A DNA stretch of 39,574 nucleotides from an uncultured Acholeplasma sp. (GCA_937868795.1 CALMNM010000133.1:1-39574), one strand, 5' to 3'; counted from the stretch's first letter, positions 8,932 through 29,393 are shown. Numbers and translations are program-made. The notes: a model not told the origin generated them from the sequence alone.

Positions 8932-9627
8932 ATGCAAAAGAATCCAGTCATTGGTAATGTCAATAAGATTCTCATCGGTGCAATCCTCTGGGGGGCTTTT
9001 TACTTACGCTTATTTTTTGATGAGTCTTCTTGGAACCAAACGTTTTTTGGATCGACATTTCCGGGGCTCTATCAAAGTGAAGTTATTTACGGTGTTCAAA
9101 TCGTTTTTTTTAGCATTCTTAACCTAAATTTATATCATTATACAGTTGGTAAACGTCATGCTGTCCTAGATATTTCCCGCTTTTTCAGAGTGTTTATTTT
9201 TTCAGCTCTCGTCGTCTTAGCGGTTCAAGCAGCAACCCTATTCCTAGACATACCTTTCCATTATGGAATTATTGGTTATCTTTTTGGTGATGGTGTGTTT
9301 GCTTCTTCCATGGCAAATCAGTCCTATCTCGTCTATGGTCTTTACACATTATCATCCATGCTTATGGTGTTATACATCGCAGGGATTTTAGTTTATGCGT
9401 ATCAAATCACTAAAATGAAACTTGCTTTTCCTATGGTTTATGTCATTAGATTTTTTATCGCATTAGGACTTTATGCCCTTGTTTTAGGGTACTCAAGTCA
9501 AGGGTTTGATCTTTATCACATGGGGTTTATGATGGTCTACGTGCTTTCTGCACTTTTGGTTTATATTAAGACCAAATACAGTTTAAAAGCACTCATCTTA
9601 TCCATACTTTTATTATTCATTCTATAA
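8932..9627 (+). CDS. polytopic membrane protein, first gene of the TerY-like operon
   Basis: A 231-residue protein not recognised as a known family. About seven hydrophobic segments can be seen, roughly at 13-30, 52-70, 86-106, 130-157, 165-187, 194-212 and 217-231, with few charged residues between them. There is no cleavable signal peptide. ATG 8932 is favoured over an out-of-frame ATG at 8927 by GGGGAAGG six bases upstream. The next gene begins 19 bases downstream, so it belongs to the same transcript. A role as membrane sensor or anchor for the kinase module is inference from position only. Confidence 0.7.
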   Translation: MQKNPVIGNVNKILIGAILWGAFYLRLFFDESSWNQTFFGSTFPGLYQSEVIYGVQIVFFSILNLNLYHYTVGKRHAVLDISRFFRVFIFSALVVLAVQAATLFLDIPFHYGIIGYLFGDGVFASSMANQSYLVYGLYTLSSMLMVLYIAGILVYAYQITKMKLAFPMVYVIRFFIALGLYALVLGYSSQGFDLYHMGFMMVYVLSALLVYIKTKYSLKALILSILLLFIL

Positions 9628-9646: not shown

Positions 9647-10345
9647 ATGAACGATTTTAAAAACGATTTCGAATTTGAAAAAGAGGTTGTCGATGAAGCA
9701 TTGCTCGATAATCCCGAACCGCGTTGCCCTGTCGTTTTACTGCTTGATACCTCCTACTCCATGACAGGAAATCCGATTAACCAACTCAATGAAGGTGTAT
9801 TTGCCTTATATGCTGCCTTGAGGGATGATGACCTCGCGTCAGTTCGTGTGGATTTATCCGTCATTTCCTTCGGACAATCGGTCCAAGTGTTGCAGAATTT
9901 CGCTACCGTTTCTGAATCACAAGCACCTGAACTCAAAGTGAATGGGATGACTCCTATGGGTGAAGCGATTGTGACGGCACTTAGAAACATTGAAAACAGA
10001 AAAAACGAATACCGTACCGCAGGTATCTCATATTATCGTCCCTGGCTTTTTGTCATCACCGATGGTGAACCTACAGACTCTGTCATGGAAGCATCCTCGA
10101 TGCTCCAAAATGCAATTGCTGGTAAGAAGGTTATTTTCTTTGGTATCGGTGTTGAAAATGCCAATATTGAACGCTTACGTCAAATCGCAGGATCTCATGA
10201 CCGTGTCTTTAAACTCAATGGACTCAACTTTAAGGAGCTCTTCCAATGGGTATCTTCATCATTATCATCTGTTTCTTCAAGCCGTGTTGGTGATACGATC
10301 AAACTTGAAAAGCCAAGTGATGATGTCTTTGAATTTGAGGTTTAG
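9647..10345 (+). CDS. von Willebrand factor A protein, TerY/YegL-like
   Basis: A 232-residue cytoplasmic VWA protein with an intact metal-ion-dependent adhesion site: DTSYS (34-38), T102 in the MTPMGEA loop and D139 in ITDGEPTD. The PVVLLLDTSYSM and NGMTPMGEA pattern is that of TerY and E. coli YegL rather than of Mg-chelatase or batA-type VWA proteins. It is followed directly by a PP2C phosphatase and a kinase, the VWA-phosphatase-kinase triad described for TerY-linked systems and for E. coli yegL-yegK-yegI. Its expected role is metal-dependent binding of a phosphorylated partner or of the kinase. AAAGGGG lies seven bases before the start. Confidence 0.88.
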   Translation: MNDFKNDFEFEKEVVDEALLDNPEPRCPVVLLLDTSYSMTGNPINQLNEGVFALYAALRDDDLASVRVDLSVISFGQSVQVLQNFATVSESQAPELKVNGMTPMGEAIVTALRNIENRKNEYRTAGISYYRPWLFVITDGEPTDSVMEASSMLQNAIAGKKVIFFGIGVENANIERLRQIAGSHDRVFKLNGLNFKELFQWVSSSLSSVSSSRVGDTIKLEKPSDDVFEFEV

Positions 10346-10347
10346 TC

Positions 10348-11100
10348 TTGGTTAAAGTCTATGGTGCCTCTGTTGTAGGTACATCTCATTTGAGTTCTGA
10401 TACGCCCTGTCATGATTCTCATGCCTACCGCGTCCTCCCGGAAAACCTTGGCATCATTGCTTGTGTATCCGATGGGATGGGAAGTGCAAAAGCTGCAGAA
10501 ATCGGAAGCCAAACGGCCTCTTCTTTCGTCGTCGATTACTTAGAAAAGATGCTCGATCCTAAGATGAGTGATGATGAGATAATTCTCTTGATCAAAGAGG
10601 GCTATGTCGAAACTTATGATGTACTCCTCATGACAGCAAGCCAACATCAACTCCACATTAAAGACTTAAATGCCACACTTCTTGTCTTCGTGTCTATAGG
10701 AGATCGTCAGTTTTATGGTCAGGTCGGGGATTGTTCCATGATTGGACGTCTTAATGATGATTATCAAGTCATCGCCGAACAACAGCGTGGTGAATACGCC
10801 AATGCCACCTTTTCGGTTTGTGATGAATCATCCATTGAACAAGGCATCTATGATAAAATTTCTGGTTTTTTTCCAGAAGTGGCACTCATGAGTGATGGTA
10901 TTGAATCGATCTCGATTTCTGCGAAAGATAAAGTCGTATCTAAACTATTTTATGATCCCTTTTTTAAAGTTTTTTCTCATGAGAATTATCATCAAAAAGA
11001 TGTTGAAGCTGCACTCGTTCGCTTTTTAAATTCTGAGCGCATTTCTAAGAAAACCGATGATGATAAGACCTTGTTATTTATTTCATTAGGAGACCTATGA
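10348..11100 (+). CDS. PP2C-family Ser/Thr protein phosphatase, PphC/YegK-like
   Basis: A 250-residue metal-dependent phosphatase. Family positions present are D23 in the N-terminal CHDSH segment, D42-G43 in CVSDGMG, T110-L111, G127-D128 in GQVGDCS, D183-G184 in MSDGIES, and D237-D239 near the C-terminus. The divergent N-terminal motif is typical of the short YegK-like subgroup. The start is TTG at 10348, two bases after the VWA stop, with GAGG seven bases before it; no ATG fits the N-terminus. It overlaps the kinase by four bases. It presumably reverses phosphorylation by that kinase. Confidence 0.88.
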   Translation: MVKVYGASVVGTSHLSSDTPCHDSHAYRVLPENLGIIACVSDGMGSAKAAEIGSQTASSFVVDYLEKMLDPKMSDDEIILLIKEGYVETYDVLLMTASQHQLHIKDLNATLLVFVSIGDRQFYGQVGDCSMIGRLNDDYQVIAEQQRGEYANATFSVCDESSIEQGIYDKISGFFPEVALMSDGIESISISAKDKVVSKLFYDPFFKVFSHENYHQKDVEAALVRFLNSERISKKTDDDKTLLFISLGDL

Positions 11101-13694
11101 AGAAATATTTCCTCGAGGATGGATCGAAAATCTTAATCGATGATTCGAAGCCGCTAGGAAGTGGTGGTGAAGGCAGTGTCTATAAACTTGCCAAAAACCA
11201 AAACATCTTGGTCAAGATTTACACTGACCGTGCGTTAGAACGCATGCCGGATATCGAAGATAAGATTAAAGCCATGGTGAATCAGAAGCCTGGTCTTTTA
11301 GACTATAATGGGCTTACCATCATCGCTTGGCCAAGCTATGTGGTTTATGATGAGTTCCATCGTTTCGTAGGATATGTCATGCGGCGTGTTCAAGCGAAGA
11401 ATCAGCTCTCTCACGTCATTACGCCCGGGTTACAAAAAGCGAAATTTCCTAATATCACCTACTATGACCGCGTGGTTATCGCCATTAATCTTGCCAAGGT
11501 CATGGGATTCTTGCATCAAAATAACACCGTGATTGGTGATATAAACACTTCTGATTTCTTTGTCTATCCTGGCTTTGAGATCGGTCTTGTTGACACTGAT
11601 TCATTCCAGGTCACCGCGAACAATCGCTTGTTTCATTGTAAAGTCTTCACCCCAGACTACACACCTCCTGAAGTCATTGATGCGAAGAAAAAGAGTTCAG
11701 TGGAAGTCAAGCGTATTCCCAATCATGACAACTATGGCTTAGCCATCTTAATCTTTCAGATCCTTATGATGGGTGTCCATCCCTTTTCTGCGCGTATTAA
11801 GGGCACCTTAGGCTTTGATGGAAACGCGATTAACTACAATATGGAACACGAGATATTTCCTTATAATACCTTGAACGGGAATATCACACCGCCGAAAAAT
11901 GCGTTTCCCTTCTCCCTATTACCCAAATACATTCAAGAACTCTTTAATCGTGCCTTTGCAAAGCATGCACTTTCCGACATTGATCGTCCCACGACAGAGG
12001 AATGGGTAGAGAAATTAAAACTCCTTAAGGAGAGTTTAAAGAAGTGTCGAAAGGATAAAACCCATTTTTATCCCAATCATTTTCAGAAATGTCCGATTTG
12101 TGCAAGAGAACAAACCAAAGATTATGATTATCTTGTCGATTACTTTAAACAGATTTCACGTAAATATGTCAAATATGAAACCCATAAGAAACCGATTATC
12201 GTCGATGAAAATTATGTCTATGATGAGACAATTATGGGGAAGTTATATACACTTAAAAAATCGAAAGATCTCGCCTACTTCTTCGATCCTAAACTGATCG
12301 ATAAATATCGACTTATCGAGCGGATAGAGGCTCTTTCTGCTGATTCCACAAAAAGACGTCTTCGATTCATCCCGATGCCTAAACTTTGGATCATGCAAGA
12401 TCAAAAGATCATTGGTTATACCGTGTCTGCACTTCCGCACCTTTACCGTGTCACGACCTTACTCAAAGGAAATAGATTAGGTAAATTAAAGGTCACAGAA
12501 AAAGCGAAACTGATCATGGCTAAAGAGATTTCTCACATGTTTAAGACGCTTGAAAAGATTAAATCACCTGTTGAACTATCCGAAATCTTTGTCGATCAAC
12601 ATTTTCATCCCTATTTGCCTGATCCTGTCCTCCTTGGAACAAGCGATCAAACCATCGTTCCGATGGCATTCCAAAAGGATGAATATTTACCTCAAGAGTA
12701 TTATTTGATGACACATTATCAACAATATCAAAAAATGCTTGAAGAGGAAGCTCGCAAAAAAGAGGAAGAAAAAAGAAGAATCGCCGAAGAACAGCGACAA
12801 AGAGATTTGGACCTTATCCGTTCACCTTTAGAACCCAAAGTTCCCAAAGTTAAAATAAAAGAGGAGAAACCTTTTGAACTCAAACCCACAGAACCTGTGG
12901 TCTCTTTTGAGTTTGAAAAGTCCCATAAAGCCATCATCGATGATCCACTTCTTGAAGAACTCGCGCCAGAGATTCCAAAGAATATCCCCTACGATCCCAA
13001 CTCAAAACAGACGACACGATTCCATCTTGCCGTCATCATTCACACCCTCATTCAAGAAGGTCACCCCTATCGTGCAACCTATAAGTTATCACAAAAGCCC
13101 ATCAGTTACTTCGTCGATAATAACATCTTCATCCATAAAAAAAGTTCAACTGGTGTTGAAATTGATGAAAAGACAAAGCCGATAGAAATATTCCCCAACT
13201 ACTATCAAAAGACGATGAAAAAAGCATTATTCATCAAGGATCCAGAACAAATAGGTCGACCTTCTCCTAGCCAGTGGCAGCGCATATTAAGACGGATGCA
13301 ATGGGGTTACACCAAATGCAAAGTCTCTGAATATCATGATTACCCCAAGCAACTGATCCGTTGTCCTTACTGTGAGATGAAAGATAAGCACGATCATGAC
13401 CACTTAAGAGCGTTTGTTCGCGCTCATAAGCGTGGGTTTACGTTCAACTATTTGGCCTTCAATCGTTTGCTTAATTACGTGGTCTTGTCAGCTTCTCTCG
13501 TTGGCTTGATCTATCTAGTCAATGTGTATGAACTCAATGATTTAAGCACGTGGATCAACGAGATCAATCTCGTACAAAAATGGGAAACCGTCAAAGCGTT
13601 TATCCATTTCGATGAGATTTTAGCGCTTTTACGCCAAGGTGTTGACTGGCTTCTCGCATTATACGAGAAAATCTTCGGAGGTGTCCCATCATGA
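11097..13694 (+). CDS. YegI-like protein kinase with tandem pseudokinase copy, two zinc modules and a membrane anchor
   Basis: An 865-residue protein. Residues 15-310 are a protein-kinase domain: glycine loop LGSGGEG (20-26), K40, catalytic D148 in GDIN, and D166 in VDTDSF. The usual N of the catalytic loop is D153, and the HRDxK lysine is N150. A zinc module follows (C317, H323, C332, C335). Residues 372-535 resemble the N-lobe and catalytic region again, but the lysine position is Y394 and the catalytic aspartate is E496. A charged coiled coil (about 541-600) interrupts it. A second C-lobe (641-735) and a second zinc module (C741, H747, C756, C759) follow, then one membrane helix (about 793-811) and an amphipathic tail. 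It overlaps both neighbours by four bases. Confidence 0.88.
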   Translation: MKKYFLEDGSKILIDDSKPLGSGGEGSVYKLAKNQNILVKIYTDRALERMPDIEDKIKAMVNQKPGLLDYNGLTIIAWPSYVVYDEFHRFVGYVMRRVQAKNQLSHVITPGLQKAKFPNITYYDRVVIAINLAKVMGFLHQNNTVIGDINTSDFFVYPGFEIGLVDTDSFQVTANNRLFHCKVFTPDYTPPEVIDAKKKSSVEVKRIPNHDNYGLAILIFQILMMGVHPFSARIKGTLGFDGNAINYNMEHEIFPYNTLNGNITPPKNAFPFSLLPKYIQELFNRAFAKHALSDIDRPTTEEWVEKLKLLKESLKKCRKDKTHFYPNHFQKCPICAREQTKDYDYLVDYFKQISRKYVKYETHKKPIIVDENYVYDETIMGKLYTLKKSKDLAYFFDPKLIDKYRLIERIEALSADSTKRRLRFIPMPKLWIMQDQKIIGYTVSALPHLYRVTTLLKGNRLGKLKVTEKAKLIMAKEISHMFKTLEKIKSPVELSEIFVDQHFHPYLPDPVLLGTSDQTIVPMAFQKDEYLPQEYYLMTHYQQYQKMLEEEARKKEEEKRRIAEEQRQRDLDLIRSPLEPKVPKVKIKEEKPFELKPTEPVVSFEFEKSHKAIIDDPLLEELAPEIPKNIPYDPNSKQTTRFHLAVIIHTLIQEGHPYRATYKLSQKPISYFVDNNIFIHKKSSTGVEIDEKTKPIEIFPNYYQKTMKKALFIKDPEQIGRPSPSQWQRILRRMQWGYTKCKVSEYHDYPKQLIRCPYCEMKDKHDHDHLRAFVRAHKRGFTFNYLAFNRLLNYVVLSASLVGLIYLVNVYELNDLSTWINEINLVQKWETVKAFIHFDEILALLRQGVDWLLALYEKIFGGVPS

Positions 13695-13885: not shown

Positions 13886-14121
13886 AAACACTGATCAATT
13901 TAGGCTTGCTAGGAATGATTGCTCTTTACTATTTTGATCAACCCTCATTCCTCCGCATTGAAGCCCCCTTCGTTCATATCATTCATTATCTTCTCATTAT
14001 TTATATCGTATGGATTCTCTTTGCTGATTTCTTTAAATCATTAAAGAAACGACTTGCGGAACGCTTTGGGTTCACACTGAAAAAATGGAAACGAAAAGTG
14101 AATAAACTAAGACATAATTAA
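13882..14121 (+). CDS. small membrane protein with basic C-terminal tail
   Basis: A 79-residue protein with two hydrophobic segments (about 3-18 and 31-49) and a strongly basic cytoplasmic tail (KSLKKRLAERFGF, then KKWKRKVNKLRHN). It is unrecognised. It is the last gene of the kinase operon: its stop is followed immediately by the terminator. Its length, start overlap and clean frame support a real gene. Confidence 0.68.
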   Translation: MKTLINLGLLGMIALYYFDQPSFLRIEAPFVHIIHYLLIIYIVWILFADFFKSLKKRLAERFGFTLKKWKRKVNKLRHN

Positions 14122-14148
14122 AAAATGAGCCAGTTTGGCTCATTTTTT
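14122..14148. terminator. bidirectional terminator between the kinase operon and pdxR
   Basis: TGAGCCA / TGGCTCA stem with a three-base loop, flanked by A-rich and T-rich tracts on either side. It works for both strands. The pdxR stop codon lies inside the stem. Confidence 0.85.
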
Positions 14149-20432: not shown

Positions 20433-20496
20433 ATTGGGTCACCTTCCTTTATCTTATCATAAAAATGTGTGAGATTTACGAATAAAATGAAAGTGG

Positions 20497-20525
20497 TTGC
20501 AATACCCCCTAAAAAATGCTATATT
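20497..20525 (+). promoter_or_regulatory. promoter of the SurA/PrsA-like lipoprotein gene
   Basis: TTGCAA (20497-20502), a 17-base spacer, TATATT (20520-20525). It lies 39 bases before the ATG, with AAGGAG as the ribosome site. Confidence 0.75.
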
Positions 20526-20564
20526 ATACTTGCTTGTATGAAATACATTGAAGGAGTGAACACA

Positions 20565-23510
20565 ATGAATCAACTCAAAACACTAAGAAAACTCGCGGTA
20601 ATTGTGCTATTATCCGCTGGTTTACTTACGTTAGCTGCATGTTCTGGCAGTGAAAAAACTCCTTACGGTAGTCTCTCTGATGACGCTTATCTTACGATTG
20701 GTGATATCACCGTAACGGAAAAAGAACTCTACGATCAACTACGTATGCAAGGCGCATCTATTCTCGCAACCATGATCGATGAAAAAATCTTTGAAGATGA
20801 AGTATCCGCTGTCCGTCAACTACTCTTAACGGGTGATGAAGATTTGAACACCTATTTTGATGAAACGGTCAATAGCGCCATACATGGTATCTCTGATCTT
20901 GAAGATCTAGAAAACCTCTACAACGATTATCCCGACCGTTTTGTTCGTAACTTAGAACAATTTGTCGATTCCTTATATTTATTGGATAACAACATTGATA
21001 GAGCAGCTGTGTTAGCAAGTCTTGAAGCATTACCTGAGAATTTCAAAAATTACGCAAGTATTCCTCTTCTATTAGACAACTATGATCTTAAAGCTACCCA
21101 ACGCTATTATGCGAAAGGACTTCTTGAAGCTGACGTCTTAGATGAAGAAAATACGAACTACATTGAAGAACAAGACCTCGTGACCTATTATACGGCTAAC
21201 AAACAAGGTCGTTATGATGTCGATGCACTTGTGATTCGTTTCATTAACTTAAATGAAGCCAATGCCGCATTATACCAAACCAGTATCAAATCTGATTCAA
21301 AAGGTTTATGGTATAAGATTCCCGATATCCGTATCGCTGTTGGACAACCTGGTTACGTCGATTTAACCGATGAAACCCCCACAGGTTATGGTCACATCGT
21401 GGACATTCTTGATGATTTAGGTTTACTTGGTAAACTCGGTGTCGATCGCGAAGATCGTTCACAACTCAGCGTGGCAGATTATGAAAACTACTACAAACGT
21501 TATGTCATCTCAACCACAAGAGAAACTGGTTTACCTGATGAAGCTTTAACTGCAGCACAAGTTAAAGAAGAATTTGTTAATATCTATAACATTTTAAATC
21601 CAGCCAATAAAGTTGAGATTGCGATTGATGGTTCTATCGTAGGTCAAGCAGGTTCTGAATTTGATGCAACCTGGACTTATGATGACTTAAATGACGTTAA
21701 CTCTAGTTTAAGAAATCACGTCTACGTCACCCTAACTGCTGAAGCAAACATGGAAGACATCGAAGATTTGGCGACTGAAAAACCATTCTCTTCACGCGTT
21801 CAAACATTCGGAAGTGCACGTTACTTAGTGTATAAACTTTCTGATGAATCCGCTTCTGAAGAAGGCATCTTAATCGAAGATCCTGAAGATCCCGATTTAG
21901 AAATTTTCGCTGATACCCCTGAAGCAACCACAGTGAAAGATGAAGTCTTTGCCGACTTATTCGATAGCAAACTCACTTCTGGTTATATTACCTCTAAAGT
22001 TTCTGCCCTTTATGATGAAAAAGAACTCGTCATCTATGACCGTGTGGTTCGTACATTCTATGAACAATCGTATGGTTATGAAGGTGAAGCGAAAGATAAG
22101 AGCGGTGATGTCATTGCTGTCATTGATGGTAAAAACATTTTAGTGGATGATTTCTATGCTCGTTTAGAACAATCTTATGGTATTAACTTATCATTAGACT
22201 TAGTTTCTAACAAAGTATTATCTGAATCTGACACGTACACTGTCACCGAAGAAGATATGGATACCTTCCAACAACAGTTCGAAGATATCATCAGCCAATT
22301 CTCTGCTGATAACTTCGCATCCGCTGGCTTCCCAGCATCGATGGGTCGTGAAAAGTTCTTACTTCTTGCGTTTGGTTCAAAAACCAACACAGAAGCTGTC
22401 AACCAACTCTATGTATACCCAGAACTTAGACAACAATATTTAGATGATCTTGAAGCACATTACAGTACTGAAGATTATACTATCTATGAAAGACTTGCTG
22501 ACTTAGCAGAACTCCAATACAACAACTTCAAGTCGATCAATGTCAGCCACTTGCTCGTTTACTTCGATGAAAATGGCGATGGTTCTCCTGATAATCCTCA
22601 AGATTACTTAGATAAGCTTGATCCAGCATCCGCACAAGATGTCAAAGATGGTTTAGTTGAACTCGTTGAACTCATCTATGATCGCCTTGGTAATTACACT
22701 GGATTTGCTGCAGGTTTAACCGCAATTGCAACTGAATTTAACAACTCGGGTCGTATCTTACGTGGCAGTGTCACCCCACCATTCGATTATCAAATTGAAC
22801 AATTATGGGCTGAATACCGTCAACTTGGTTTCTACCTCAAGTATGAAAACATTTCAAGTGCAATCACCAATACTTCCAACTTGATCACCGGACAATCTGT
22901 CTTAGATCCAGTCTTCTACAACCGTGCGATGGTTTTACATCAACAATTAGAAGAAATGCCCGATGATGATTCCAAATTCCCACTCTTAGACCTCTATGGT
23001 ACTGTCATTACAGAAGCTGCCTTAGATGAAGTCATGTCGGATTTCGGTTGGCACTTAATTCTTGCAACCTCTACAGGTACCAAGACTTCTGCAGTCTTTA
23101 GCGCAGCTGATGATGAAGATGGTAAGTATGTTTCTTCTTCTGATGAAACCTTAAATGTTTATAATGAAGATTCAGAAACCTTAACCGCATCACAAATCGA
23201 ATTCTACTTAACTGAACAAAAGAGTGATGAAGGCGTCGTTCTTCCCACCGCTGTTCAAACAGCAATCAACAACTACTTAACTCCTGTGCTTTCTCGTTAC
23301 CAGGGAACTTACATGCAAAGAGAACTCATTTTCCAACTTGTTCAAGATGTTGAATTTGTGAATCCTGCAAGTGCACTTCGTTTCCAAACTGTACGTGAAA
23401 TCAACCTTCGTCAATTAGATTCATATCTACTCTCGATGAATGGTGTGTATGATCAAAACTATGCTGACCTTTATGGCAGTTGGTTTGATGTTCTTCACTC
23501 AGGTTTATAA
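20565..23510 (+). CDS. very large SurA/PrsA-like foldase lipoprotein
   Basis: A 981-residue predicted extracytoplasmic lipoprotein. It has a signal peptide with lipobox LAAC (C26), then a SurA-N-like segment beginning LTIGDITVTEKELYDQL. A parvulin-like stretch follows near 220 (RYDVDALVIRF). A second SurA-N-like segment begins near 514 (VIAVIDGKNILVDDFYARL), with a second parvulin-like region whose ends are visible as INVSHLLVYF (about 657) and FGWHLILATS (about 826), separated by an unusually long insertion. Thus two PrsA-like modules in tandem. It probably assists folding of secreted proteins; isomerase activity is not proven by sequence. ATG 20565 is fixed by the ribosome site and signal peptide. 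Confidence 0.8.
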   Translation: MNQLKTLRKLAVIVLLSAGLLTLAACSGSEKTPYGSLSDDAYLTIGDITVTEKELYDQLRMQGASILATMIDEKIFEDEVSAVRQLLLTGDEDLNTYFDETVNSAIHGISDLEDLENLYNDYPDRFVRNLEQFVDSLYLLDNNIDRAAVLASLEALPENFKNYASIPLLLDNYDLKATQRYYAKGLLEADVLDEENTNYIEEQDLVTYYTANKQGRYDVDALVIRFINLNEANAALYQTSIKSDSKGLWYKIPDIRIAVGQPGYVDLTDETPTGYGHIVDILDDLGLLGKLGVDREDRSQLSVADYENYYKRYVISTTRETGLPDEALTAAQVKEEFVNIYNILNPANKVEIAIDGSIVGQAGSEFDATWTYDDLNDVNSSLRNHVYVTLTAEANMEDIEDLATEKPFSSRVQTFGSARYLVYKLSDESASEEGILIEDPEDPDLEIFADTPEATTVKDEVFADLFDSKLTSGYITSKVSALYDEKELVIYDRVVRTFYEQSYGYEGEAKDKSGDVIAVIDGKNILVDDFYARLEQSYGINLSLDLVSNKVLSESDTYTVTEEDMDTFQQQFEDIISQFSADNFASAGFPASMGREKFLLLAFGSKTNTEAVNQLYVYPELRQQYLDDLEAHYSTEDYTIYERLADLAELQYNNFKSINVSHLLVYFDENGDGSPDNPQDYLDKLDPASAQDVKDGLVELVELIYDRLGNYTGFAAGLTAIATEFNNSGRILRGSVTPPFDYQIEQLWAEYRQLGFYLKYENISSAITNTSNLITGQSVLDPVFYNRAMVLHQQLEEMPDDDSKFPLLDLYGTVITEAALDEVMSDFGWHLILATSTGTKTSAVFSAADDEDGKYVSSSDETLNVYNEDSETLTASQIEFYLTEQKSDEGVVLPTAVQTAINNYLTPVLSRYQGTYMQRELIFQLVQDVEFVNPASALRFQTVREINLRQLDSYLLSMNGVYDQNYADLYGSWFDVLHSGL

Positions 23511-27862: not shown

Positions 27863-29393
27863 AATCACCAAAGTTCCCTTGAGCATATCGGGTGTATTCA
27901 AGTTCCTGTAAGATCCATAAACTGCGTTGTTCAAGATAATCCTTAAGATACTCGATTTGTTTTTCATGTGTATTTGCTTCAAGCATCTCGTTTGGATTAG
28001 GCCAAGTATAGATACCATATCGGGGCCACTTTTCAAAGTTATGTTCTGCTTGGTTAGCAAACGATTCACCGAGAATGGGAATCATGATCAGTAATTCAGG
28101 GAGCACTTCATTCATGTACCACTGGTAGCGAAGTTTAAACCGTTCTCTGATTTCAGGTCTCGCCATCATCAAACCAAATAAACGATTTTTCCAATCTCGC
28201 ATGCCATACCAATTTTCAGGACCATAATCGATATAATCCGCATTACCAAAAGCGAAGTCAAAGTCCCAGATAGGACCAAATTCGATACGTCCTCCTTGCT
28301 CTTTCATCATGTAAACAGAACTCCAACCCACATCGACATTTTTTGATATCTCATGAATTAAAAAGAAATCGATCGCATTATCTACATCCAGATATTCTTC
28401 ATAATCCCCGATGACGGTTAAGCCGTATTCCATGCGATACATGTAATTCTGCAAGAACTCTGCTTGCGCATCCAAATACGCAGGATCTTCTGGATCGGGT
28501 TCTTTGATTTCATAAGGATGTCGATCCACCAAAAACCAACCATTGCCTTCTTCTAATTGCCATTCATAGAAACGCATGTCAAGTTCAAAGAAATACCCTG
28601 TATCAATGACGCCAGGAAGTGTTTCAAAATAGAGTTTATTGGGATGGACTTCAACCTGTTCAGTTAAGACATAAAGGCCTTGATAACTATCATCGATATA
28701 GAGATCAATATAACGAATCTGTTGGGCATAATTGAGATGGGTGAAAAGCTGAGACATTTTATGAGCGACTGCATTTCTCATCAACGATGTATCGGCATAT
28801 TCTGCTAACAAAACATAGTTTTTTGCTTCAGGCATCCCAAAGATGGAGGTGTTTTTATCAAAACGCATCCGATAAGGCTTTTTCGGATAAGCATACCATG
28901 TCGAGTTTCCTCTACCTCTTAGTTTGACCTCATCGGTGGTTACCTCAGTGGTTGTGATGCCGTTTTTAATCCATTTTACTTCAACGCTAATGCCGATATA
29001 GGTGTCTAGCATGATCGTTTCGTTGGGAATATCACGGTGGATGTTGATTTGATAATGATTGTGTCCAGAGTCACTGGATAGCAAAGTCACAGTCTTAGTA
29101 AACTCAACCTCCGAGGTTCCTCTAGATACTTTTACTTTCACTTCAACTTCTCGATCATAAAAAGGCGATACGTACGTATACATGTCTTCTGAGATAACAC
29201 CATCCACATCATACATAACACGATAATCATCTTCGATGCTTAACTGAAAATCTGCGTTCAAATATTCAGGAATTTGATTGAGTAATGTATCTTCCATCGC
29301 ATTTAATTCCTCAGTAAAATCACGCCATGCTTCACATGCCGTAAGGGTGATGCTGATGAAAATTAAGAAGATAAATACGAAGATTTTTTTCAT
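27861..29393 (-). CDS. CotH-kinase-family lipoprotein
   Basis: A 510-residue predicted surface lipoprotein: signal peptide and lipobox LTAC (C20), a beta-rich N-terminal region, then a CotH-kinase domain. Landmarks are LRGRGNSTW (158-166) with PKKPYR, LYVLTEQVE (239-247), FFLIHEISKNVDV (343-355) and the metal-binding WDFDFAFG (376-383). The family is an atypical secreted protein kinase first seen in spore coat protein CotH. Outside spore formers it occurs as exported proteins of unknown substrate. AAGGTGA precedes the ATG, but the atp-operon terminator is only 12 bases upstream, so its promoter is unclear. Confidence 0.86.
   Translation of the reverse strand: MKKIFVFIFLIFISITLTACEAWRDFTEELNAMEDTLLNQIPEYLNADFQLSIEDDYRVMYDVDGVISEDMYTYVSPFYDREVEVKVKVSRGTSEVEFTKTVTLLSSDSGHNHYQINIHRDIPNETIMLDTYIGISVEVKWIKNGITTTEVTTDEVKLRGRGNSTWYAYPKKPYRMRFDKNTSIFGMPEAKNYVLLAEYADTSLMRNAVAHKMSQLFTHLNYAQQIRYIDLYIDDSYQGLYVLTEQVEVHPNKLYFETLPGVIDTGYFFELDMRFYEWQLEEGNGWFLVDRHPYEIKEPDPEDPAYLDAQAEFLQNYMYRMEYGLTVIGDYEEYLDVDNAIDFFLIHEISKNVDVGWSSVYMMKEQGGRIEFGPIWDFDFAFGNADYIDYGPENWYGMRDWKNRLFGLMMARPEIRERFKLRYQWYMNEVLPELLIMIPILGESFANQAEHNFEKWPRYGIYTWPNPNEMLEANTHEKQIEYLKDYLEQRSLWILQELEYTRYAQGNFGD

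Follow-up and report, generated by a model that had tools for sequence, protein, structure and literature searches.

A YegI-type kinase and a predicted pseudokinase in one protein, each followed by the same CHCC zinc module, in an Acholeplasma gene cassette

YegI/TerY-P kinases are widespread, and to our knowledge neither their control nor the role of their VWA partner has been settled. E. coli YegI is reported to be a Ser/Thr kinase of the membrane that undergoes autophosphorylation, its dephosphorylation being carried out by PphC (PMC13232886). TerY-P triads consist, according to the CoCoNuT paper, of a VWA protein, a PP2C phosphatase and a kinase with a C-terminal zinc ribbon (PMC11090510). 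Described bacterial pseudokinases include EssB/YukC, ActPs, CP1, DYD, DLHK and a Yersinia Yegi1 member (PMC12599244), and plant tandem kinase proteins such as Pm24 and Yr15/WTK1 (PMC6997164, PMC6170490) carry a kinase and a pseudokinase in one chain. A tandem kinase-pseudokinase of the YegI/TerY-P family, of which the initial annotation of the present locus had known no description, was not found described in the open-access literature searched.

The window is a stretch of 39,574 nucleotides from an uncultured Acholeplasma sp. (GCA_937868795.1, CALMNM010000133.1:1-39574). An intact open reading frame of 865 amino acids is located at 11097-13694 on the plus strand, exactly as initially annotated, and its product was divided into two units of a kinase and a zinc module each, K1 (residues 1-345) and K2 (residues ~366-775). 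The coordinates of all features of this gene and its operon partners are provided in Table 1.

Table 1. Features of the tandem kinase gene and its upstream partner genes (window coordinates)
Feature	Coordinates	Strand	Evidence
Polytopic membrane protein, 231 aa, first cassette gene, no Pfam family	8932..9627	+	Hydropathy
VWA-domain protein, YegL-like	9647..10345	+	PF00092 1.8e-16; 49% identical to E. coli YegL
FEFE word, VWA N-terminal tail	9668..9679	+	Pattern search, alignment
FEFEV, exact C-terminus of VWA protein	10328..10342	+	Same sequence in 15/15 tandem-associated VWA rows listed
PP2C-type phosphatase, PphC/YegK-like	10348..11100	+	PF13672 1.4e-34; 29% identical to E. coli PphC
K1, YegI-type kinase domain, residues 1-316	11097..12044	+	PF00069 5.7e-7; YegI 1e-53; kinase fold Z ~15 (residues 5-317 of full-length model)
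CHCC zinc module 1, residues 317-335	12045..12101	+	Sequence alignment of homologues
K2 N-lobe to APE region, residues 357-535	12165..12701	+	Profile and multiple alignments, AF2
K2 charged insertion, residues 536-636	12702..13004	+	AF2 pLDDT, charge count
FxFExS word, F604-S609, in disordered K2 insertion	12906..12923	+	Invariant positions, 17/17 homologues
K2 C-lobe, residues 637-740, R721 and W727 kept	13005..13316	+	hhalign vs K1 C-lobe 99.6%, E 2.6e-23; YegI 6e-12
CHCC zinc module 2, residues 741-759	13317..13373	+	Sequence alignment of homologues
C-terminal transmembrane helix, residues 781-810	13437..13526	+	AF2 helix 781-810; hydropathy peak 792-810

The locus has the composition of a YegI-type triad, namely a YegI-homologous kinase, adjacent VWA and PP2C genes, and a zinc module directly after the kinase. 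The same three proteins make up E. coli YegI-PphC-YegL (K1 is 31% identical to YegI over 356 residues; the other identities are given in Table 1), and YegI likewise has membrane segments and a C-x5-H-x8-C-x2-C knuckle right after its kinase. YegI differs in having a single kinase unit followed by a helix-hairpin-helix tail, whereas the tail of the present protein is formed by a degenerate second kinase-zinc unit; YegL is without the FxFE tails carried by the VWA protein here, and no fourth membrane gene lies beside the yegL locus. The knuckle follows the kinase in YegI-type proteins of E. coli, Pseudomonas, Sinorhizobium, Sphingomonas, Rhodococcus and Calothrix. The CHCC module is thus the ordinary zinc element of the family, and the unusual feature is the presence of two kinase-zinc units in one protein.

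TerY-P triads share both the triad and the kinase-zinc fusion (PMC11090510), but here the kinase is doubled, and the neighbours checked (DAHP synthase, PadR, a HAAS protein, an RsmB-like methyltransferase and a MocR-type regulator) included no tellurite-resistance or restriction/defence genes. The locus was not assigned to the TerY-P stress/defence system, given the lack of defence, tellurite or DNA-processing neighbours, the varied flanks, and a PADLOC TerY match of only E 0.02.

The initial annotation had likened the arrangement to the JAK family, in which a kinase and a pseudokinase also share one chain. In JAKs the pseudokinase comes first and the kinase second; here the kinase is N-terminal and the pseudokinase C-terminal, the kinase is YegI-type rather than tyrosine-type, and there is no FERM or SH2 domain. 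Foldseek aligned the full-length model with JAK chains over ~775 columns at a low TM-score (0.18-0.22). With the order reversed and a YegI-type kinase, the protein was not classed as a JAK-type tandem (pseudokinase N-terminal to a tyrosine kinase), and the likeness is an analogy only. Plant tandem kinase proteins differ in being eukaryotic immunity proteins, and we know of none with a zinc module or a VWA/PP2C operon. The bacterial pseudokinases of PMC12599244 are similar in being kinase-fold domains with degraded motifs, and Yegi1 corresponds to the kinase family of K1 by name and by a DxD motif, but no kinase-pseudokinase tandem of this type is described there. The protein provides a bacterial counterpart to the eukaryotic kinase-pseudokinase theme.

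The two halves were initially said to align in order, and comparison of their profiles bore this out from end to end. The K1 and K2 half-profiles matched with a probability of 99.7% over 301 columns (hhalign, E 2.8e-26 for a single comparison). When the insertion was left out, the profile score was 156.5, compared with a mean of 16.2 (sd 2.9, max 25.3) for column-shuffled second halves (n = 100). By BLAST, a first-half segment of one relative (L023) matched query residues 642-784 at 3e-11, and a C-half fragment (L014) matched query residues 213-344 at 4e-8. The C-lobes were strongly alike (Table 1), and the likeness of the N-lobes taken alone was weak (hhalign 44%). The CHCC ligands occur with identical spacing in both copies (C317/H323/C332/C335 and C741/H747/C756/C759), a Trp is located 14 residues before the first Cys (W303, W727), the RP pair is present in each (R297-P298, R721-P722), and DYTPPE/DEYLPQE and GVHPFSA/GHPYRA fall in register in the alignment, all in keeping with the original observations. 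The zinc ligands, W303/W727 and the RP residues except P722 showed little or no variation among the homologues covering them. The protein contains one kinase-plus-zinc unit in two copies, K1 and K2.

In K1, residues K40, D148, D166 (DTD), E192 and D211 were invariant. K1 keeps the YegI-typical catalytic set and is probably the active enzyme. The Pfam Pkinase model matched nothing else in the source genome (94% complete), and the module may therefore be the main Ser/Thr kinase pathway of this genome.

K2 was recognised by none of Pfam, NCBIfam and PADLOC and had no credible PDB-sequence match. Along with the weak N-lobe comparison, this would suit a second half that is not a kinase fold and has in common with K1 only the zinc module and the C-lobe helices. 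The predicted structure makes such a reading, which would also have contradicted the initial proposal, very improbable. AlphaFold2 of K2 alone (17 sequences, no templates) returned a confident two-lobed kinase (pLDDT 84.3, pTM 0.81), Foldseek ranked M. tuberculosis PknB/PknA first with all top matches being protein kinases across the full domain, and VIA-align of the K2 model gave Z ~15 across ~245 residues against many solved protein kinases. Residues 361-739 of the full-length model also matched kinases at Z ~15; the full-length Foldseek search was ambiguous on which half had matched, and this was settled by the ranges of the VIA matches and by the separate model of K2. The full-length model (pTM 0.53) did not demonstrate a contact between K1 and K2, a point against the mechanism favoured below. 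By sequence comparison, K2 segment 642-764 matches on its own the same YegI region as K1 (Table 1).

Catalytic residues of K2 have been lost, although not all in the manner first described. Y394 is aligned with the catalytic Lys K40 of K1, as had been proposed (Y, V, I, F or L in relatives), and the VAIK Lys is missing from every K2 homologue covering the position. The placement of E496 at the catalytic Asp position was wrong: E496 lies opposite K1 D153 and varies (E/A/Q/H). Both profile and multiple alignments show a three-residue deletion in K2 exactly opposite K1 D148-I149-N150, the HRD Asp position is deleted in all six K2 rows displayed, and the invariant Glu of K2 is E493, which adjoins the deletion. 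In addition, the glycine loop is absent, and the αF Asp D211 of K1 is replaced by T640 (I or L in relatives). The DFG-Asp is kept as D509 (equivalent to K1 D166; invariant in 17/17 homologues), and E192 and R297 of K1 correspond to E534 and R721, the APE-Glu/Arg ion pair, which was invariant where covered. The same applied to E493, D509, W727 and the zinc ligands, and the catalytic losses were common to the relatives.

Given the change of K40 to Y394, the catalytic-loop deletion and the retained counterpart of the E192/R297 pair, residues for ATP anchoring and catalysis have been lost while the fold-holding ion pair has been retained. K2 is, on its predicted structure, a pseudokinase with a protein kinase fold, and from the residue losses we infer that it lacks phosphotransfer activity. 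Alignment, predicted fold and residue losses thus support the initial description of a kinase-pseudokinase tandem in a YegI-type protein with the same zinc module after each unit. The two invariant acidic residues in the cleft region (E493 and D509), along with the precedents of SelO and SidJ (PMC12599244), leave some room for a repurposed K2 whose kinase fold serves a different nucleotide-dependent reaction. We regard this as improbable, since K2 is without a glycine loop, has a shortened catalytic loop and shows no invariant Lys where ATP would be anchored.

The tandem gene was found in 13 of the 88 genomes of the source family, Acholeplasmataceae (as two fragments on separate contigs in G045 and in broken frames in G076), and in five of the 49 genomes of an Izemoplasma family (G329, G492, G516, G502 and G406). 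The G076 copy (L032/L038, G076:C152:6351-7143) comes from a 67%-complete genome and is a pseudogene or an assembly error. Evenly drawn class and phylum samples contained, outside those two families, only weaker, kinase-only matches. A genome-contig scan with the full protein returned only Acholeplasmataceae/Izemoplasmataceae lineages, and tandem forms may exist in other phyla. Among 55 plasmid records no place covered 80% of the protein, the rows listed matching the K1 part only; viral contigs contained no K2 relative, and the phage collection contained one single-unit kinase. The initial annotation had allowed for the second half being absent from all close homologues, but it is present in all full-length ones.

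A tree built from 41 units placed the K1 copies in one group (98/96) and the K2 copies in another (100/100). This pattern fits a single origin that preceded the split between the tandem lineages of Acholeplasmataceae and Izemoplasmataceae. The results are consistent with a kinase-plus-zinc unit having been duplicated or fused once before these lineages diverged; because the K2 branch is so long (2.97 changes per column), the tree does not decide whether K2 was a duplicate of K1 or another YegI copy that became fused.

K2 is under purifying selection, with dN/dS values of 0.02-0.15 for K2 segments where dS was estimable (synonymous change unsaturated). The frame, the fold residues and the zinc ligands are kept in all 17 aligned relatives from the two families, as far as each covers them. 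Column identity was ~0.6 in K2 compared with 0.77 in K1; that is, K2 evolves faster, a pattern that fits regulation and also loose scaffolding. The same faster evolution, the lost catalytic residues and the broken frames in G076 could be taken as signs of a functionless duplicate in decay. Such decay is hardly credible and is already ruled out in the main by the low dN/dS values and by what all 17 relatives have kept.

The stop codon of the PP2C gene overlaps the start codon of the kinase gene (ATGA). Wherever the contig was long enough, the cassette order was fixed as membrane protein, VWA, PP2C and tandem kinase, and the flanks differed. At all tandem loci with enough contig sequence on that side, the membrane gene preceded the VWA gene, and in the source family it occurred in 12 of the 13 tandem-kinase genomes and in none of the 75 genomes without the tandem. 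The most conserved cassette member was the VWA protein (91-94% within the genus; against the Izemoplasma loci 79-84%, with the kinase there at 46-51%). Conservation so far above that of its operon partners suggests that the VWA protein has many constrained contacts. A sigma-70 promoter scan found sites in numbers not above those in shuffled sequences. A strong hairpin is located at 14120-14148, in the space where the kinase gene and the MocR-type gene converge.

The charged insertion that had been pointed out within K2 was recovered (42% charged residues). It was predicted as helix to ~573 followed by disorder (AF2 pLDDT <50 at 583-623) and was poorly conserved, with 41-50% identity in the columns flanking the FxFExS word. 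Within this word, F604, F606, E607 and S609 were invariant in 17/17 homologues. Tandem-associated VWA proteins begin with (F/I)EFEKE and end exactly with FEFEV in 15/15 rows listed, and neither end-word was found in YegL or in six plasmid VWA homologues. By pattern search, FEFE could be read at 16 places on both strands of the 2.0-Mb genome, three of them within this 4-kb stretch (0.03 expected), and three of the six places in ORFs of at least 60 residues are these words; this clustering was recognised post hoc and should be taken as a lead rather than as proof. FxFExS mimics the FxFE words at the N- and C-terminal ends of the VWA protein, and the K2 loop may therefore compete with the VWA tails. 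We read the two as addressing a single binding site.

Given that K2 is conserved and always accompanied by the same three partner genes, it probably controls K1 or docks partners for it. In the mechanism that we favour and consider fairly likely, K1 would be the active Ser/Thr kinase of this membrane-anchored protein, K2 would act in cis and without catalysis to set the activity of K1 and to dock the VWA partner, the PP2C phosphatase would reverse the phosphorylation, and the polytopic membrane protein would be the likely signal input. Alternatively, K2 could be a passive scaffold that holds the VWA, PP2C or membrane protein near K1 and leaves K1 activity unchanged. Its evolution rate is about that of the membrane partner, the FxFExS word is in a disordered loop as is typical of docking words, and EssB/YukC is a precedent for a bacterial pseudokinase scaffold (PMC12599244); an entire kinase fold and a zinc knuckle have been kept, however, which is more than a tether needs, and we consider passive scaffolding possible but rather unlikely. 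A more specific form of cis-regulation, in which VWA binding would displace the FxFExS loop beside the degenerate activation region of K2 and thereby switch the kinase on or off, with the dedicated membrane protein as input, is tentative and, as a whole, unlikely. The dead kinase-zinc copy and the matching VWA words point to possible sites of regulation or docking, and the specific candidate residues are F604, F606, E607 and S609 of K2 and the FEFEV end of the VWA protein.

Several further observations were made on VWA proteins and kinases. Other VWA proteins of the same class (L059, L063, L064 and L065) bear related FxF[DE] words near their N-termini, which counts against the favoured reading of the shared word. 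At two of these loci, L064 (G188) and L065 (G166), VWA genes occur in several copies, alongside one or two single-unit kinases, among further shared genes, an arrangement that resembles a larger signalling island. A Fusobacterium record of 2.1 Mb that is listed as a plasmid (L072, NZ_CP084075.1) encodes a YegI-like kinase whose N-terminus carries a long extension and whose kinase part is followed by Cys-rich repeats. Elsewhere in the window are a 1013-residue ORF without a Pfam family (20469-23507) and a CotH-like atypical kinase (PF08757, 4e-41) at 27864-29393.
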